Shown piece after piece: positions 8,706 through 25,839 of a DNA stretch of 37,455 nucleotides. The DNA comes from Nitrospinaceae bacterium (GTDB lineage: Bacteria > Nitrospinota > Nitrospinia > Nitrospinales > VA-1), in NCBI GenBank assembly GCA_029261515.1, contig JAJDBE010000015.1, positions 1 to 37,455 on the forward strand. The letters run 5' to 3'. A program made the position numbers and the translations under genes. Under the pieces are notes generated by a model. The model saw only the letters and a program-made list of their open reading frames with translations, ran no database searches and was not told the DNA's origin. Numbering within the stretch: position 1 is the stretch's first letter; each line of letters opens with the position of its first letter.

Positions 8706-8751
8706 TTGTCCCGACTTTTAAGAGTGGATTCAAGAGAGATTGAGGGTTAAA

Positions 8752-10389
8752 ATGACGACATCCTTCACTTTCAGAGAGCGCTTCTTCATGAAAACCGCAA
8801 AAATAATCAAGTCAATCACTTTCATTTTCCTTCTTTTCCTATTTCCGTCCAACCTGCACGCCGGACTTTTCGATAACGATGAAGAAAACTGGAGGAGGAT
8901 CTTCGGAGAAATAAAGAAGATCAACGCCCGGCTGGTTTCTTTGGAAACGGGGAAGTTGAAAGCTCTTGAAACCGTCCAACAGGATTCGATCCGTCAACTG
9001 GAAGAAATAAAAAACCTGATCCCGGCTCTCCAGGGAACGGTGGAGCAAAGCCAGTCTGAAATGGGAGGCCATATTCAGGTCACCAATAAGAAACTGGCGG
9101 ATATTGAAACCCAGCTCAAGTTGGAAGTGGTCAAAAACCTGAATCAACAATTGGATAAAGTGGTGCAACAAGTCAACCAGCAATTGACCCAACAGACCCA
9201 GGCGAACGAAAAATTTCAAGGAAGCCTGATTGGGCAATTTGATCAGCTGAAAACTCATTTGGCGGGGGACATGGATAAGTTTGCCAACGTCAACAAAGGG
9301 TTTTTTCAGGACATGGCCAAGACCAACAGCGAATCCCTGACGAAGGTGGTGGAGCGGCTGAACGCCCAAAACCAGGCCCTTGATAAAGTCAACCAAATCG
9401 TCAAATCCGAATTGATACCCGCCATTATTCAGCAAAACGAAAAAAGCCGAGACCTGCTTCTTTCCGAAATGACGAAGGCCAATAAATCCAATCAGGATGG
9501 CATCCTTGCGGCTTTTTCCCCCATCAATGCGAAGAACCAGAAGCTAGTGGAAATCCTGGAGCGCAGTCTCAAGGAAGAAGAGATGACGCGGTCGAACGTG
9601 GAGATCCTTTCCACAGGCATGACCCAGACCAATGACAACGTCATTCGAACCCATGACGATATGGTGAAACTAAAAGACGGTCTGCTACAGCAGATGGAAG
9701 CCATTTCAAAAATCCTGCAGGGCTTGTCCGCTCAGGTGAGCGCGGGGTCGCAAAAGGCGGAACAAAAAATTGATGGCGTTAATAATAATCTGCGAGTGGC
9801 GGATGAAAAAATAAACAAGCTGGCCGAAACCCTAAAAATCATCCAGTCGCAAAGCGCTTCCTCGGCATTGAACGGAGAAAAACTCAACAAGCTGGTGGGT
9901 TCTTCTGCCGAAATCGCCACGCACGCCAACAAAATGAACCAGTCGCTGCAAACGGTAGATCAGGCGCTCAATTCCATTCAGGGCGGGCTGGCAAATGTGG
10001 ATCTGGCCAATCAAAAGCTGTCAAAATTGATTGATATATTGAAGACCATTGCCACAGAGCAGGGGAAAATGACCCAGGTCATTCAGGCTCAACAGACACT
10101 GACGAAGGATCAGCAGGCGTTGATTCAGGCTCAACAGGCGATGAAACAGGCGCAAGGGCAAATGAATCAGATGCAGAACGACATCAAACAAAGTCAGAAT
10201 GAAATAAAAAGAGCGCAGGTGCAAATTTTAAAATCTCAGGCCGATATCAAAAACACACAAGCGGCGACACTTAAGTCTCAGGCAGACACCAAAAAAGAAA
10301 TCGCGGATTTGTCTCGTAAAGCCAATGTCAATATTTCGCGGAACGACGCCATAAGAAAAATCCTGGCCAACCTGGAGAAAAAGCCTTAG
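8752..10389 (+). CDS. Exported long coiled-coil protein downstream of pal
   Basis: I do not recognise a named family. The product has a Sec-type signal (KIIKSITFIFLLFLFPSNLHA, cleavage after HA) followed by about 500 residues of almost continuous predicted coiled coil, rich in Gln, Lys, Asn and Leu with few Pro or Gly. A Gln-rich zone of degenerate repeats (QAQQ.., KSQADIKNTQAATLKSQAD) occupies roughly the last 110 residues. ATG 8752 is chosen because GAGGG lies 5 nt upstream; ATG 8788 would give a more typical short signal peptide, and an in-frame TTG lies at 8740. In many genomes the gene after pal is cpoB/ybgF, an exported coiled coil plus TPR protein; this one occupies that place but shows no TPR repeats. 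A periplasmic scaffold is plausible and unproven. Confidence 0.75.
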   Translation: MTTSFTFRERFFMKTAKIIKSITFIFLLFLFPSNLHAGLFDNDEENWRRIFGEIKKINARLVSLETGKLKALETVQQDSIRQLEEIKNLIPALQGTVEQSQSEMGGHIQVTNKKLADIETQLKLEVVKNLNQQLDKVVQQVNQQLTQQTQANEKFQGSLIGQFDQLKTHLAGDMDKFANVNKGFFQDMAKTNSESLTKVVERLNAQNQALDKVNQIVKSELIPAIIQQNEKSRDLLLSEMTKANKSNQDGILAAFSPINAKNQKLVEILERSLKEEEMTRSNVEILSTGMTQTNDNVIRTHDDMVKLKDGLLQQMEAISKILQGLSAQVSAGSQKAEQKIDGVNNNLRVADEKINKLAETLKIIQSQSASSALNGEKLNKLVGSSAEIATHANKMNQSLQTVDQALNSIQGGLANVDLANQKLSKLIDILKTIATEQGKMTQVIQAQQTLTKDQQALIQAQQAMKQAQGQMNQMQNDIKQSQNEIKRAQVQILKSQADIKNTQAATLKSQADTKKEIADLSRKANVNISRNDAIRKILANLEKKP

Positions 10390-19067: not shown

Positions 19068-19199
19068 TTAATTGAGTGGAGCCATTTTGGGCGCAGTGAT
19101 TTTGAAAGTCAAAGCATGAAGGATTTCTTATAAATAGTGTATATTAGAGCGGTCAATTTGGATTTTAATCAACCGATTGAACAAAAAAAGAGAAGCTGT

Positions 19200-20039
19200 A
19201 TGGATGAAATTTTTGCATGGATGGAAGTTTTAAATCTCACTGCTTCGAGTTTGCTGGACCAATTGATTGCATACGCCCCCAACCTGATTGGGGCGGCGTT
19301 TATCATTTTCCTGGGGTGGATCATCGCACGGCTCTTGCGCGCTGGGACCAAACGGCTGGCAACGGCTATCAACAGTTCGCTGGATCGTCTTTGGAAAAAG
19401 AGTAAGGCGGCGCGTTTTCGTTTGTCGGAAACGTTTATTTCACTCACCAGTAAAATCGTATTTTGGGTGGTGTTTCTTTTTTTCGCGGCATTTGCGACCC
19501 GTGTCCTTGGGTTGCATGCGTTTTCCGACTGGCTGGACGAGATCGTCGCTTATTTTCCGACGTTCGTGGCGGGTGCACTCATCATCGTTGCCGGGTTTTT
19601 ATTCGGTGCGCTGGTCCGGGATCTCACGATGACCGGAGTAGCTTCCGCCGGTATCAAACAAAGCCGTTTGTTTGGACGTATTGCTCAAGGGACGACCATC
19701 GCCACCGCCGTAGTCATTGGTCTCAGCCAGGTTGGGATCGACGTCACCTTTCTAGTGACTTTGATTTCCATCATCGTTGGTTCGCTATTGGGCAGTATCG
19801 CGCTGGCGGTAGCCCTTGGGTCGAAGAATCTGGTCAAGAATTTTATTGGTTCGCATTATATCCAGAAGCAATTCCGCGCGGGGCAAAAAGCCCGAATAGG
19901 CGATAAGGAAGGAACCATTCTGGAATTCACGCCCACTGCGGTCGTATTGGCAACCGAAGAAGGCCGCGTGACCGTTCCCGCGAAAGTGTTCAACGAGGAA
20001 TCCACCCTGTTAATGTTGCCGAAAGAAGACGATGAGTAG
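19200..20039 (+). CDS. MscS-family small-conductance mechanosensitive channel
   Basis: Inner-membrane tension-gated channel relative that relieves hypo-osmotic shock or conducts ions. The 279-residue protein has four or five hydrophobic helices (about 20-44, 78-102, 110-135, 152-176, 182-204). A Gly/Ala-rich pore helix, VGSLLGSIALAVALGSKNLVKNFIGSHYI, is followed by the start of the beta domain (FRAGQKARIGDKEGTILEFTPTAVVLATEEGRVTVPAKVFNEES). The large C-terminal alpha/beta vestibule of E. coli MscS is missing, so this is a short form. ATG 19200 is chosen (purine-rich AGAGAAG upstream); an ATG at 19137 would add 21 hydrophilic residues. Its last 8 nt overlap the next gene, marking an operon with Mg2+ and cation transporters. 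Confidence 0.88.
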   Translation: MDEIFAWMEVLNLTASSLLDQLIAYAPNLIGAAFIIFLGWIIARLLRAGTKRLATAINSSLDRLWKKSKAARFRLSETFISLTSKIVFWVVFLFFAAFATRVLGLHAFSDWLDEIVAYFPTFVAGALIIVAGFLFGALVRDLTMTGVASAGIKQSRLFGRIAQGTTIATAVVIGLSQVGIDVTFLVTLISIIVGSLLGSIALAVALGSKNLVKNFIGSHYIQKQFRAGQKARIGDKEGTILEFTPTAVVLATEEGRVTVPAKVFNEESTLLMLPKEDDE

Positions 20040-20886
20040 CGGGTATGAGTTGACACAGGCCTTTCTTGAGGCACGCAAAGAAGAAGCGGCGAAGGAACTG
20101 GAACGGTTGGCTCCCGAGGATGTCGCCGCATTCTTTGAAAATGTTCCTGCAAAAATTGCAGCGGGCGTTTTTGAAAAAATGATATCCTGGCAGGCATCCC
20201 GGTGCATTCTTCATATGAAACCCGAAACGGCGGCGGGCATGATGGCAGCCATCAAAGCCCCTGCTTCCACCACGCTTCTTCGTCTTTTGCCCCAGGAAAA
20301 TAAGGACCGGATTTTTGAGAAACTGCCGGCGTTAAAAAACAAATCCGTTAAAAAACTGCTGGCGTATCCAGAGGAGATGATCGGCGCCTGGATGAATCCC
20401 TTAGTGGCAACGGTGCCGGAGACTTCGAGTGTGGAGGAGAGTTTGAAGTATGCCGGTCGATTCGGCAATTCTTTGGGGCATTATATCTATGCAACGAAAC
20501 GGGAAGGAACTTATACAGGCATTGTGATGCTTGCGGATTTGTTTCAGGCGAAGAAGCGGGTTTTAATCGCGGATTTATTAAGCCATGAGTTCAACCCACT
20601 TCTCGACCGCGCCACTTTAGAGTCCGCCCGGTTTTTATCCGAATGGAATGATTTCAAACGATTGCCTGTTGTGAACCGGAAAAATCATCTGCTAGGAGAG
20701 TTGAGCCATGCCAGCCTGTGCGCGGCGCTTTCTTTGGATCCCGCAGAAGCCGCTTCTGAAAATATCGGATCGCTAGTGGCTCAATTTGGAGAAGTGTATT
20801 TCAACAGCCTGGGGGAAATGGTGAACTTTCTCGTCGAGACGAATGTTTTTGCCGATGAAAAACCCCGCCAGGAGAAAAAATCGTGA
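20032..20886 (+). CDS. Soluble MgtE-like regulatory protein (MgtE N domain plus CBS pair, no membrane domain)
   Basis: A 284-residue protein resembling only the cytosolic half of MgtE. The superhelical MgtE N domain (about 20-112) includes LAPEDVAAFFENVPAKIAAGVFEKM and RLLPQENKDRIFEKLP. A CBS pair follows (about 116-172 and 178-240), with MNPLVATVPETSSVEE and RLPVVNRKNHLLGELSH. There is no TM segment; the C terminus is charged (DEKPRQEKKS) and ends within the mgtE start codon (GTGA overlap). In MgtE these parts bind Mg2+ or ATP and close the pore. A separate soluble copy coupled to a full mgtE suggests a partner subunit or adaptor. Truncation of a transporter by mutation is unlikely, because both ends are cleanly overlapped by neighbours. 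Confidence 0.8.
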   Translation: MSSGYELTQAFLEARKEEAAKELERLAPEDVAAFFENVPAKIAAGVFEKMISWQASRCILHMKPETAAGMMAAIKAPASTTLLRLLPQENKDRIFEKLPALKNKSVKKLLAYPEEMIGAWMNPLVATVPETSSVEESLKYAGRFGNSLGHYIYATKREGTYTGIVMLADLFQAKKRVLIADLLSHEFNPLLDRATLESARFLSEWNDFKRLPVVNRKNHLLGELSHASLCAALSLDPAEAASENIGSLVAQFGEVYFNSLGEMVNFLVETNVFADEKPRQEKKS

Positions 20887-22190
20887 CCGGCAATGCAACG
20901 GTTGTTCAGGAGGCCCTAAACCGGCGGTTCTTGACCGATCACTCGGTCCTGGCGGCGCATCAACTTGAGACCATGACTCCGGGAGAAGCGGCGTCCCAGT
21001 TAATCAAGCTGCCAGCCAGAGTTCTTGTTCCTGTCCTGGAGAAGTTGACTCCCGGTTTTTCCGCCGGTTTGTTCGCTTGTTTTCCGGAAGAGAAAGTCAA
21101 AAGCATTTTGCCGGAGATGAACCCCAATCATCTGGTGACACTGCTTGGGCAAGTGAGCAAGGAGTTAAAAGATAAATACCTGTCCTGGGCGGACAAAGCG
21201 CTGAGAAGGGAATTGCTGGAGCTGATGAGCTACCCGGAGGACAGCGCTGGCCGGTTGATGGACACCAAAATGGGTTTGTTCCGTGAAACCATGACGGTGC
21301 CGCAGGGCTTGAAACGCCTTCGCGGCCTGGGGAGAAATAGCAACCGCAGTTTGTTTTTGATCGATGCAGAGAACAAGCTTTGCGGCAGGGTCAGCATTCA
21401 GGATATGGCGCTTGCCGATCACGATCAGCTCTTGAAAGATATTGCTGAGCCTGTTTCAGTGGTGGTGAATCCGTTGACTTCGAGGGACGAGGTCGTCGGT
21501 CTTTTAGAGAAGCACCGAATCACCAGTCTGCCTGTTACCGATCTCGATGGCCGCATGGTCGGCGTCATTCAATATGCCGGGTTGGTTAAAGCCATCGAGG
21601 AAGAAGCCACGGTCGATATCCAGACCATGGTGGGAGCAAGCAAAGATGAGCGCGCGCTCTCCAAAGTAAGTTTTGCCGTTTCCAAACGCCTTCCCTGGCT
21701 CGAAATCAATCTGCTGACGGCGTTCCTGGCGGCCTCGGTGGTGGGCATATTTGAGGACACCATCAGCCGCAACACGGCTCTTGCGGTTTTACTGCCCGTG
21801 GTCGCGGGCCAGTCCGGCAATACGGGAGCACAGGCGCTGGCCGTCACCATGCGCGGATTGGCTTTGCGTGAGATCACCATTCGCCAGTGGTTCCCCGTTG
21901 TGATGAAGGAAGTCTGTGTGGGATTTATTAATGGGATCGCCGTGGCTTTGACCACTGCAATTGGCGTCTATTTCTGGAGCCGATCCCTGGGTCTTTCCCT
22001 GGTCATTGGCGTGTCCATGGTGCTTTCCATGATCGCGGCAGGTTTTGCCGGAGCAATCGTTCCCATGGGTCTCGTCAAAGTAGGGCAGGACCCGGCCACC
22101 TCCTCCTCAATTATCCTCACCACCGTGACCGATATCGCGGGATTCTTTTCCTTTCTGGGAATTGCCACACTATTGTCCAGCATGTTGTAA
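20883..22190 (+). CDS. mgtE: Magnesium transporter MgtE
   Basis: Dimeric Mg2+ channel of the inner membrane. The 435-residue protein has an MgtE N domain (about 25-128), two CBS domains (about 132-190 and 196-256, with SLPVTDLDGRMVGVIQYAGL), a connecting plug helix, and five TM helices (about 278-435). The membrane part keeps PVVAGQSGNTGAQALAVTMRG and the pore motif TTVTDIAGFFSFLGIA, whose Asp corresponds to the Mg2+-selecting Asp of the Thermus thermophilus channel. GTG is the start, overlapping the previous stop. N domain and CBS1 are diverged from consensus, and acidic Mg2+-sensor residues appear fewer than in typical MgtE; this could relate to the extra soluble protein encoded just upstream. 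Confidence 0.92.
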   Translation: MTGNATVVQEALNRRFLTDHSVLAAHQLETMTPGEAASQLIKLPARVLVPVLEKLTPGFSAGLFACFPEEKVKSILPEMNPNHLVTLLGQVSKELKDKYLSWADKALRRELLELMSYPEDSAGRLMDTKMGLFRETMTVPQGLKRLRGLGRNSNRSLFLIDAENKLCGRVSIQDMALADHDQLLKDIAEPVSVVVNPLTSRDEVVGLLEKHRITSLPVTDLDGRMVGVIQYAGLVKAIEEEATVDIQTMVGASKDERALSKVSFAVSKRLPWLEINLLTAFLAASVVGIFEDTISRNTALAVLLPVVAGQSGNTGAQALAVTMRGLALREITIRQWFPVVMKEVCVGFINGIAVALTTAIGVYFWSRSLGLSLVIGVSMVLSMIAAGFAGAIVPMGLVKVGQDPATSSSIILTTVTDIAGFFSFLGIATLLSSML

Positions 22191-22233: not shown

Positions 22234-23409
22234 ATGCATGACATAACCGCCTCCATCGAATTTCAAATGAGCCTGTTACTGTTCATCGCCCTTTCAGGCT
22301 ATTTGATTGCGTCCCGGATCGGACAGCCTGCGGTGGTTGGAGAAATTCTCGTGGGCATGGTCATCGGACCCAGCGTTCTGGGATGGATCACCTACACCAG
22401 CTTTGTCAGCAGCATTGCGCATTTGGGTGCGGTCATTTTGTTATTTGTCATTGGTCTCGAATTCAAGCTGAAAGACATTGCCAAAATAAAATATGGGGTC
22501 ATTGCTATTTCCGGGATCGTGGTTCCCTGGCTCGGAGGCTATTTTCTGGCGGTTTGGTTTGGCTTCGATGCCCCGCGCGCCATGTTGATCGGCGTGGCCC
22601 TTTGCGCCACCAGTATTGCGGTCACGGCGGACACGTTGAAAGAAATCGGCAAACTGAAAACCGAAGCCGCCAAAGCCATCATCGGCGCGGCAGTGATCGA
22701 CGACGTGCTGGCGCTGATGGCGCTCTCGGTCACCAATCAGATGTCGGCGGGGACGTTGTCCTTAGCGGGGACTTCTCTGGCGCTGGTCAAATCCTTCGGG
22801 TTTCTCATTACCGGTGCGCTGTTGGGACATTTCGTTTTGACGCGGTTTGTCAACAAACTCGATGGCATGCCCATCGCCCGCAAATACCCGGAATTTGTTT
22901 TTATTTTCGCCATGATGATCGCCTTTCTCTACGGAATGATGGCGGAGCTGGCCGGGCTGTCGGCAATCGTCGGCGCCTTCATCGCCGGCGTTTCTCTGGA
23001 AGGCGTGGGACTGAAATTCAGCCGTAGTTTTAAGGAAGGTTCGGAATATTTGCGCATCATCTTTGCGTCGGTGTTTTTTGTGTCCCTCGGAATCATCGCC
23101 GACGTGTCAGCGTTGACGCCGGATGTTCTGGGCTATTTATTGCTTTTGTCGGTTGTCGCGGTCATCACCAAAGTCGTGGGCTGCGGTATTCCGGCCAGAT
23201 TATATGGTCTCAGCAACCGCGATTCTCTGGTGGTCGGGTTTGGCATGTCGCCACGCGGGGAGGTGGCGATGATCATCGCGCTCTTAGGACTCAATCAGGG
23301 GATCATCGACCAGCCCAATTACGTCGCTCTGGTGCTGATGAGTCTTTTGACCACCATCGTGACGCCGCTGGTTCTCCGCTTCTGGCTTTATAAAGGTGAG
23401 GTGGCCTGA
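22234..23409 (+). CDS. CPA2-family cation:proton antiporter (KefB/NapA-like, membrane domain only)
   Basis: Monovalent cation/H+ antiporter of the inner membrane. The 391-residue protein has about 12 TM helices. Family blocks include RIGQPAVVGEILVGMVIGPSVLGW (about 29-52), LLFVIGLEFKL (about 70-80), ALCATSIAVTADTLKE (about 127-142) and the paired Asp of GAAVIDDVLALMAL (about 151-164), which carries the ion-binding carboxylates. There is no C-terminal TrkA-N (RCK) domain, unlike full KefB/KefC, so gating by NAD(H) or glutathione is not expected from this chain. It starts 43 nt after mgtE and is the last gene of the ion-transport cluster. Na+ versus K+ specificity cannot be judged. Confidence 0.9.
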   Translation: MHDITASIEFQMSLLLFIALSGYLIASRIGQPAVVGEILVGMVIGPSVLGWITYTSFVSSIAHLGAVILLFVIGLEFKLKDIAKIKYGVIAISGIVVPWLGGYFLAVWFGFDAPRAMLIGVALCATSIAVTADTLKEIGKLKTEAAKAIIGAAVIDDVLALMALSVTNQMSAGTLSLAGTSLALVKSFGFLITGALLGHFVLTRFVNKLDGMPIARKYPEFVFIFAMMIAFLYGMMAELAGLSAIVGAFIAGVSLEGVGLKFSRSFKEGSEYLRIIFASVFFVSLGIIADVSALTPDVLGYLLLLSVVAVITKVVGCGIPARLYGLSNRDSLVVGFGMSPRGEVAMIIALLGLNQGIIDQPNYVALVLMSLLTTIVTPLVLRFWLYKGEVA

Positions 23410-23461: not shown

Positions 23462-24463
23462 TTATTTCTCTAAACTATTCAGCTTGTCCAACGTTTTTTT
23501 GACTTTGTGAGTATTGATAAACGTGGCGATATGAAACAAAGCGTCGCCCTTGTTAACGAGGGGCAACTGGGTTTTTCCAATCACGATGCCTCCGACATTC
23601 GCCCGCACCGGAACATTGTGCTTGCCGAACGGGTCGCGAATAAAGCCCAGATTTTCCTTTGCTTCTACATGCGCTCCCAGAGGTTTTCCCGAGGTCAAAA
23701 TTCCGGCGGACGGAGCCCGGACCCAGACGGTTTTCTCGGAAATGAAGGTCTCCGGCCGTGTCGGCTGGGGTTTGGAGGGCAACATGCCGATGGCCCGCAT
23801 CACGGCTTTGATTCCATTCACTCCCATTCGAATGACGTGTTCATCATGACGCAGCGCTTCGCCGCCTTCGTAAAGCAGGATCGGAATATTTTTCTTATGC
23901 GCTTCCGCACGTAGTGAGCCGTCTCTGGAATTGGCATTGATGATGACCGGCACGCCGAACTGGAACGCCAGATTCTTGGTATCCCGGTCGCCAATAAAAC
24001 CGCGGATCTGTGGCAGGTTGGTTCGATGAATCGCCCCGGTGTGCAGATCGATCCCGTGAGTGCATTTATCCAGAATCTCGACGGTGAAGAGATTTGCCAG
24101 TTGCGCGGCCATGGAACCTTTGGAAGAGCCGGGAAAGGAGCGATTGAGATCCCGGCGGTCGGGCAGGTAGCGCGAGAGCGTGTTAAACCCAAAAATATTG
24201 ACCACGGGAATCGTGATCAGGGTGCCGCACAGCTTTTTGAGTGGTTTGTAGGTGAGCAGGCGGCGGATGATTTCAATTCCGTTGATCTCGTCCCCATGAA
24301 TGGTGGATGAAATGAATAGGGTGGGGCCGGGGCTCTTGCCACGTTTCACCTCAACGGGAAGACTGACTTCGGTAAAATCGTACAACTTGGCGACGACAAG
24401 ATGAACGATTCGGTGTTCCCCAGGTGCAATGATTTGCCCTCCGATTGAAAATTCTTTCTCCAT
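23462..24463 (-). CDS. Succinylglutamate desuccinylase/aspartoacylase-family zinc hydrolase
   Basis: M14-like zinc hydrolase of the AstE/AspA family. The 333-residue protein shows the zinc site HGDE (His56, Glu59), DLNRSFPG (about 105-112) and the third ligand His141 in DLHTG. A C-terminal beta-rich domain (about 240-333) is present, as in family members. It is translated 3 nt after rimK, with its ribosome site (GAGGA) over the rimK stop codon. No arginine-catabolism (ast) genes are nearby, so classical AstE activity is unlikely. A role in trimming or recycling glutamyl or N-acyl groups in a RimK pathway is more consistent with context, as inference. Confidence 0.85.
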   Translation of the reverse strand: MEKEFSIGGQIIAPGEHRIVHLVVAKLYDFTEVSLPVEVKRGKSPGPTLFISSTIHGDEINGIEIIRRLLTYKPLKKLCGTLITIPVVNIFGFNTLSRYLPDRRDLNRSFPGSSKGSMAAQLANLFTVEILDKCTHGIDLHTGAIHRTNLPQIRGFIGDRDTKNLAFQFGVPVIINANSRDGSLRAEAHKKNIPILLYEGGEALRHDEHVIRMGVNGIKAVMRAIGMLPSKPQPTRPETFISEKTVWVRAPSAGILTSGKPLGAHVEAKENLGFIRDPFGKHNVPVRANVGGIVIGKTQLPLVNKGDALFHIATFINTHKVKKTLDKLNSLEK

Positions 24464-24466
24464 TCC

Positions 24467-25372
24467 TCAACCGTCTCCGCTGGTTCGGGTATTCCCGGGT
24501 CGCGCGTCTTTCTCAATGAACTCGATGATCTTGCTGGCCACGTCCAGCCCTGTAGCTTTTTCAATGCCTTCAAGACCGGGGGAGGAGTTGACCTCCATGA
24601 CTACGGGGCCGTGGTTGGAACGCAGGAGGTCCACCCCGGCCAGGTTCAAACCCATCGCTTTGGCGGATCGAACCGCGGTGCTGCGTTCCTCCGGGGTGAT
24701 TTTGATGACATTTGCAGTCCCTCCCCGGTGCAGGTTGGAACGGAATTCGCCTTCCTTGCCCTGCCGCTTCATGGAAGCAACCACCTTTTCACCCACAACA
24801 AAACAACGGATATCCGCGCCACCGGCTTCCTTGATGAATTCCTGAACCATGAAATTGGCTTTCAGACTTTGAAAGGCGCCGATAACGCTCTCTGCTGCTT
24901 TGTAGGTTTCCGCCAGCACCACACCCTTGCCTTGGGTTCCTTCCAGGAGTTTGACTACCAGAGGCGCGCCGTTGCAGAGCTTGATGAGTTCATCGGTACT
25001 CTTGGCGGAGTGGGCGAAACCCGAAATGGGCAATCCGATGCCCTTACGGGCCAGAATCTGCAGAGACCTCAATTTGTCACGCGAACGCGATATGGCCACC
25101 GATTCGTTCAGGGAATACGTGCCGCCCATTTCGAACTGGCGCACGATGGCGGTTCCGAAAAAAGTAATAGAAGCACCGATCCGGGGAATGATCGCGTCTA
25201 CGTTGTTTAACACTCGGTCCTTGTAATGAACCGTGGGTTTATGCGAGGTGATATTGACGTAGCATTGGAGGGGATTGACTACTTCCACTTCGTGGTTTCG
25301 ATTCTTGGCCGCTTCCACCAGCCGCTTCGTCGAGTAAAGTTTGGGCCCACGGGATAAAATTGCGATATTCAT
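24467..25372 (-). CDS. rimK: RimK-family alpha-L-glutamate ligase
   Basis: ATP-grasp ligase. E. coli RimK adds glutamates to the C terminus of ribosomal protein S6 and can make poly-alpha-glutamate. The 301-residue protein matches E. coli RimK (300) in length and layout: N-terminal preATP domain ([22 protein letters not shown]), [18 protein letters not shown], glycine-rich ATP loop [34 protein letters not shown], and the metal-binding [19 protein letters not shown]. It overlaps the rimB stop by 4 nt (ATGA) and is followed by the AstE-like gene after 3 nt, so the three are translated as a unit. The S6 target is inferred from homology. Confidence 0.95.
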
Positions 25373-25839
25373 TTTTTTGTACCTGCTTTCTTTGATTTGA
25401 GAAAAGATTTTCCAGGGTCGACGAGATAAAATTTTCTGATCGCTTCCCGACCCAGCAGCAAACGAAATCCCATCATGTCCCGATTGACTAAAGTGAGTTC
25501 AATGGTGTGCTCAATGTCCCCAATGTTCAGGGTGGTTTTAATCACCGGCCGCAGGCTGGATTCGCCATTGGAGCTTTTGACGGACCGGTGCTCCATGATC
25601 CGTGCCGACACCAAAATTTCCGGGATATTGCTCCTTTGTTTTGGATGCACCAGAAATTCGATTTTTCTGGATTTACGGTTCAATTGAGCTTCCGAAATAT
25701 GCAGGGAGGAAGTCCGGGCGCCGGTGTCGACCTTGGCTTTGATTTGATCAATTCCCAGGTCCGGGAAGGACACCCATTCCCTCCAACCGATGACGGGAAG
25801 AGGGGCGCGCTTTTTTTTAGATAACTTCTTTTTTTTCAA
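25369..25839 (-). CDS. rimB: RimB-like retropepsin-type protease (ATP-dependent zinc protease family)
   Basis: Small protein of the RimB/YhgH-type retropepsin-like family (often annotated ATP-dependent zinc protease). The 156-residue sequence has [32 protein letters not shown], where Asp of the VDTGA motif is the expected catalytic aspartate, and a second half with [11 protein letters not shown]. In Pseudomonas, rimB sits with rimK, and the product modulates S6 glutamylation. The likely start is a TTG at 25839; the N terminus is Lys-rich ([11 protein letters not shown]) and encoded by two A8 runs, which are prone to slippage or sequencing error. It is the first gene of rimB-rimK-AstE-like. 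Confidence 0.87.

Follow-up and report, generated by a model that had tools for sequence, protein, structure and literature searches.

A free-standing paralog of the MgtE cytosolic domain, encoded between an MscS-type gene and mgtE, as a candidate regulatory subunit of an MgtE-family channel

A 37,455-nucleotide contig from a Nitrospinaceae bacterium (the whole stretch analysed here, hereafter the window) encodes a 284-aa paralog of the MgtE cytosolic domain that is devoid of the membrane part and lies directly upstream of a complete mgtE. We call this protein SOL and the adjacent channel the partner MgtE. MgtE is the standard textbook case of a channel and its Mg2+ sensor sharing one chain. 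We think it probable (roughly 60%) that SOL regulates a specialised MgtE channel as a dedicated subunit, and we infer that it binds this channel. The cytosolic N and CBS domains of this MgtE were duplicated to give a free-standing protein, which has stayed strictly linked to the channel in Nitrospinota and in Alpha-, Beta-, and Gammaproteobacteria. SOL would bind the N and CBS domains of its partner as a hetero-oligomer, and would set channel opening in place of a Mg2+ clamp that the partner has lost.

Three genes follow one another on the forward strand of the window with overlapping ends: a gene for a CmpX-type MscS-like channel (positions 19,200–20,039; PF05552, E-value 3.7e-17, with a weak match to PF00924), SOL (20,032–20,886, ATG start), and the partner mgtE (20,883–22,190, GTG start, 435 aa). 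The open reading frame of the MscS-type gene extends from 19,137 to 20,039, and its start is likely at 19,200, giving a protein of 279 aa that is typical of relatives. An 8-nt overlap (ATGAGTAG) joins the end of the MscS-type gene to the SOL start, and a 4-nt overlap (GTGA) the SOL stop to the start of mgtE. Against NF033912 the MscS-type gene scores 60.6 bits, below the cut-off of 100, and the C-terminal (vestibule) domain of MscS, PF21082, has no match in it (19,137–20,039). A Mg2+ riboswitch was sought upstream and no M-box was found, the sole match being a sub-threshold CRISPR repeat (E-value 0.89). A CPA2-type cation/H+ antiporter gene on the same strand (22,234–23,409; PF00999, 1.8e-63) is also found downstream in some Nitrospinota (L035, L036, L040, L049, and L050), and is outside the conserved operon core.

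SOL matches MgtE_N (2.5e-13; residues 17–115, positions 20,080–20,376, with predicted helices over residues 2–110) and CBS (6.9e-6; a CBS pair at about residues 118–235, positions 20,383–20,736, that includes the SOL-specific W120 and W205). It has no match to the PF01769 membrane domain, scores 47.9 bits against TIGR00400 (cut-off 232.75), and lacks a CorC_HlyC domain at E-values up to 1. It is 23% identical to the partner MgtE across 247 aa (2e-14). The AlphaFold2 model of SOL (mean pLDDT 90.8) has the MgtE N-domain and CBS-pair fold plus an extra C-terminal helix, predicted at lower confidence (residues 237–275, positions 20,740–20,856), and the top Foldseek matches to this model in the PDB are MgtE cytosolic domains (8gpv, TM 0.72/0.79; 2yvy, 2e-15). 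The sequence-only reading had described a 284-residue MgtE_N and CBS protein coupled to mgtE, and the domain searches and the 4-nt overlap bear this description out. Its phrase "no membrane part" is right in that PF01769 is absent, and is qualified by the C-terminal helix, which is moderately hydrophobic in most relatives, with a hydropathy below that of the partner's transmembrane helices.

The partner MgtE is complete, with N, CBS, plug, and 5-TM domains (PF01769, 1.5e-30; MgtE_N, 4e-13; CBS, 1.9e-10), and at 263.5 bits it exceeds the 232.75 cut-off of TIGR00400. The PX6GN motif and the pore aspartate D432 are each present in 84/84 partner MgtEs. The P(D/A)X4PX6D selectivity motif, as defined in PMC9276622, is not matched, its second proline being isoleucine in all 84; the motif is also missing in nine of the 23 canonical MgtEs compared. 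By sequence, the partner belongs to the MgtE channel family, with putative Mg2+ transport. The AlphaFold2 model of the partner (pLDDT 77.9, pTM 0.51) was too weak for use.

The suggestion that SOL goes with a full MgtE is upheld by strict co-occurrence and adjacency, in Nitrospinota and in the proteobacterial samples. In a first survey of the window's genome and 60 relatives, SOL was directly 5' of an MgtE in 17 genomes. Across 77 Nitrospinota genomes, SOL scores 329–420 bits in 17 (next match 123) and the partner-type MgtE 711–798 bits in the same 17 (next 330), and the two genes are adjacent in all of these carriers. A scan of named genomes with the partner MgtE gave 442 relatives. Among the best 80 of these 442, which were inspected and come from Nitrospinota and Alpha-, Beta-, and Gammaproteobacteria, SOL lies directly upstream in all except one (L158), whose record starts 137 nt before mgtE; at four other loci just the end of SOL is present, at a contig edge. 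Even samples of 369 Gammaproteobacteria and 289 Alphaproteobacteria contained 27 and 8 genomes, respectively, with the partner-type MgtE, and in each of these SOL is adjacent, allowing for two cases at contig ends (G221 and G240). One further genome, G333, was left out of the 27 because its MgtE lies in broken frames: on a 3.7-Mb contig (L212, 3958–4876) SOL is intact and the partner mgtE is split across several frames, by either pseudogene formation or sequencing error. No genome was seen to have SOL without MgtE.

The overlap between SOL and mgtE measures 4 or 11 nt at 51 loci. Natural SOL–MgtE or MscS–SOL fusions of the Rosetta-stone kind were sought and none was found, long stop-to-stop frames being read as overlapping frames. 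Pairwise identities of SOL correlate with those of the partner's cytosolic domain at 0.91, as against 0.77 for the partner's own two domains, a correlation that owes something to shared phylogeny. Ten proteobacterial carriers encode, away from the operon, one more MgtE_N protein that is as long as a full MgtE, and the operon is therefore an accessory system. In the window's own genome, a canonical MgtE is encoded separately (G000:C163, L052), and there is a further MgtE_N-containing frame of 216 aa (G000:C240, L051).

It had also been proposed that SOL couples the channel to the upstream MscS product, and at the gene level this tie is real and conserved. The MscS-type gene adjoins SOL in 74 of the 78 loci with room for it, the 8-nt overlap recurs in 57 of the 75 loci measured, and full-length orthologs in the phylum (14 genomes) are all within the SOL–mgtE operon only. 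A 67-residue MscS fragment in G019 was considered as a decayed operon and rejected, as a contig end cuts it off. Three operons (L047, L049, and L050) have no MscS gene, and a search elsewhere in those genomes found no ortholog; L049 and L050 come from one genus, so that the absence spans two lineages. Since SOL and MgtE persist there without MscS, the core pair is SOL and MgtE. The SOL C-terminal helix at these three loci has a hydrophobicity of 0.23–0.35 (minimum 0.54 in the others) and a charge of +3 to +6 (maximum +2 in the others). Because the tail is altered where MscS is missing, this covariation, which was noted post hoc and comprises two evolutionary events, points to a contact between the SOL C-terminal helix and the MscS-type protein.

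If the helix does contact the CmpX-type channel, MgtE-mediated divalent flux could thereby depend on membrane tension or osmotic state. A full three-part assembly, in which SOL would bridge the CmpX-type channel and a clamp-less MgtE so that tension or osmotic state, and not cytosolic Mg2+, is in control, is possible but in our estimate rather doubtful; the MscS coupling is a more novel and less certain step than the reading of SOL as an MgtE subunit. A primary role for SOL at the MscS-type channel, for instance as its cytosolic gate or anchor, with MgtE a co-regulated neighbor, is unlikely. Such a role would fit the MscS gene directly 5' of SOL, its frequent 8-nt overlap, and the covariation of the C-terminal helix with MscS presence, but the three genomes without a detected MscS ortholog retain both SOL and MgtE, and SOL without MgtE was seen in no genome.

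The idea that SOL is a copy of the Mg2+ sensor fares poorly on comparison of the acidic residues. Numbering was anchored on TtMgtE (2yvx_A), and the Mg2+-sensor positions are those of the TtMgtE structures. Acidic residues are found in canonical MgtE, partner MgtE, and SOL, respectively, at rates of 96%, 2%, and 5% for D91; 91%, 4%, and 1% for D95; 100%, 12%, and 8% for D247; 100%, 1%, and 20% for E258; 96%, 92%, and 15% for E216; and 100%, 94%, and 13% for D259, the SOL alignment at these positions being less certain than the partner's. The D214 equivalent is likewise mostly lost in both. Neither protein therefore retains the N–CBS clamp: its acidic residues (D91, D95, D247, and E258) are lost in SOL and the partner, whereas the canonical MgtEs of the phylum have them. 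The partner does retain its pore and its plug/TM acidic residues (D418 acidic in 100% of canonical and 99% of partner MgtEs, pore D432 in 100% of both).

Gating by nucleotide as in TtMgtE, also raised by the sequence-only reading, is weakened as well, because 83 of 84 partners have another residue at the position of the adenine-stacking F227, which just 23 of 79 SOLs retain. The ATP-site residues taken from PMC5529423 (Y170, R187, D188, N203, and F227) show mixed retention in SOL and the partner, and the phylum's canonical MgtE varies too. It is quite improbable that SOL, as a free sensor of Mg2+ or ATP, works in the manner of the TtMgtE cytosolic domain and controls MgtE gating via Mg2+ bridging: the fold is the same, some SOLs keep F227, and D188 is retained in 73 of 84 partners, but the equivalents of D91, D95, D214, D247, and E258 are mostly lost from both proteins. 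SOL or its partner may have a pocket for another ligand. We would give little weight to the view that SOL is a dedicated chaperone that helps the partner MgtE or MscS to assemble or remain stable and has no gating role. The strict pairing within the operon and the translational coupling would be compatible with this, but a full N and CBS fold, a known regulatory module, exceeds a chaperone's needs.

In a maximum-likelihood tree of the N and CBS regions (98 rows, including 37 SOLs and 37 partner MgtEs), SOL forms a clade with support of 100/98 and the partner one with 100/96, and the two together are set apart from canonical MgtE (100/99). On this phylogeny, SOL and the partner are sister clades from a single old duplication, which answers in the affirmative the earlier question whether the soluble paralog goes back to one. 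Close SOL pairs give dN/dS values of 0.07–0.34 (distant pairs were discarded because they are saturated), indicative of purifying selection. W205 is present in 79/79 SOLs and W120 in 65/79, and neither is commonly tryptophan in MgtE. That SOL is a truncated or decaying mgtE copy with no function of its own, as its missing membrane domain, its annotation by MgtE_N and CBS alone, and its faster evolution (mean identity over the cytosolic part 33%, versus 41% for the partner) might suggest, is hardly credible and is refuted by the clade test and by conservation: SOL is a separate clade and not inside full MgtE (the grouping that the sequence-only reading had named as its refutation), is under purifying selection with an invariant W205, has complete linkage across two phyla, and has no membrane-domain or TM relic at its loci.

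Several known systems bear on the reading of SOL as a regulatory subunit. The partner shares the N, CBS, plug, and 5-TM plan, PX6GN, and D432 with TtMgtE (Thermus thermophilus; TIGR00400, PF01769), whose cytosolic fold is also common to SOL. In known MgtE, however, the sensor is in the same chain and the protein is a homodimer, whereas here a second, soluble copy is encoded by an obligatory gene of its own; the partner also differs in having no Mg2+ clamp residues and isoleucine for the second proline of P(D/A)X4PX6D. Soluble MgtE_N–CBS proteins of the Rv1232c type exist in Actinobacteria. Salmonella CorC, a CBS-pair protein without a TM domain, has been proposed to regulate a transporter, itself described as uncharacterised (PMC12421838). 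CorC/YbeX of Salmonella and E. coli, beside CorB/PaeA, resembles SOL in being a paralog, without a membrane domain, of the regulatory CBS portion found in a family of cation transporters, although it has CorC_HlyC where SOL has MgtE_N, and SOL shares its operon with the presumed target channel. The regulatory-subunit reading would thus parallel Salmonella CorC, as an analogy of kind. CorA proteins with an MgtE-like N-terminus in Dechloromonas and Magnetospirillum (cited in PMC9276622) are another case, like SOL, of the MgtE cytosolic module reused outside standard MgtE; there it is fused to CorA, whereas SOL is a separate subunit beside MgtE. The cmaX-cfrX-cmpX operon of Pseudomonas aeruginosa, which encodes the MscS-type CmpX together with a Mg2+ channel and one further small protein (PMC7641640), is a precedent for the linkage of an MscS-type channel with a Mg2+ channel seen in the SOL operon, but its channel is CorA-like, and CfrX (84 aa, function unknown) is not an MgtE_N–CBS protein.

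The constant company of SOL, its MgtE, and nearly always the MscS-type gene in many environmental bacteria suggests an undescribed three-part ion-control system; no description of an mscS–SOL–mgtE operon was found in the literature searched, largely without subscription papers. A widespread clamp-less MgtE lineage with a separate, obligatory domain copy is a natural test of gating control, and the MscS link, if physical, would join osmotic sensing to divalent-cation transport. The operon is present in named, non-metagenome strains, such as those of Sneathiella and Pseudomaricurvus, and is therefore testable.

Other genes recur around the operon. A RimB-RimK-AstE/AspA trio, on the reverse strand of the window (23,462–25,839), is found beside it in Nitrospinota and Alphaproteobacteria in varied positions and orientations (L114–L117, L120, L123, L161, L130, L132, L135, L137, L139, and L142), which suggests a functional link through glutamate ligation or osmotic physiology. 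At two loci where MscS is missing (L119, 1621–4038; L122, 1560–3962), the genes 5' of SOL resemble, by eye, gamma-glutamyltranspeptidase and N-formylglutamate amidohydrolase. At positions 8,740–10,389 of the window, a 549-aa ORF with no Pfam match at 1e-5 lies beside Tol-Pal type genes (ExbB/ExbD/TonB/TolB/OmpA). A CDF-type cation efflux gene (PF01545; 14,833–15,978 in the window) occurs close to the operon at 15 loci, and CorA (PF01544) at several (L113–L120, L123, L124, L130, L132, L139, L142, and L161 for these two neighbors). Two loci (L116, 2393–3256; L161, 2428–3291) carry a second, divergent MscS-type gene beside the operon's own.
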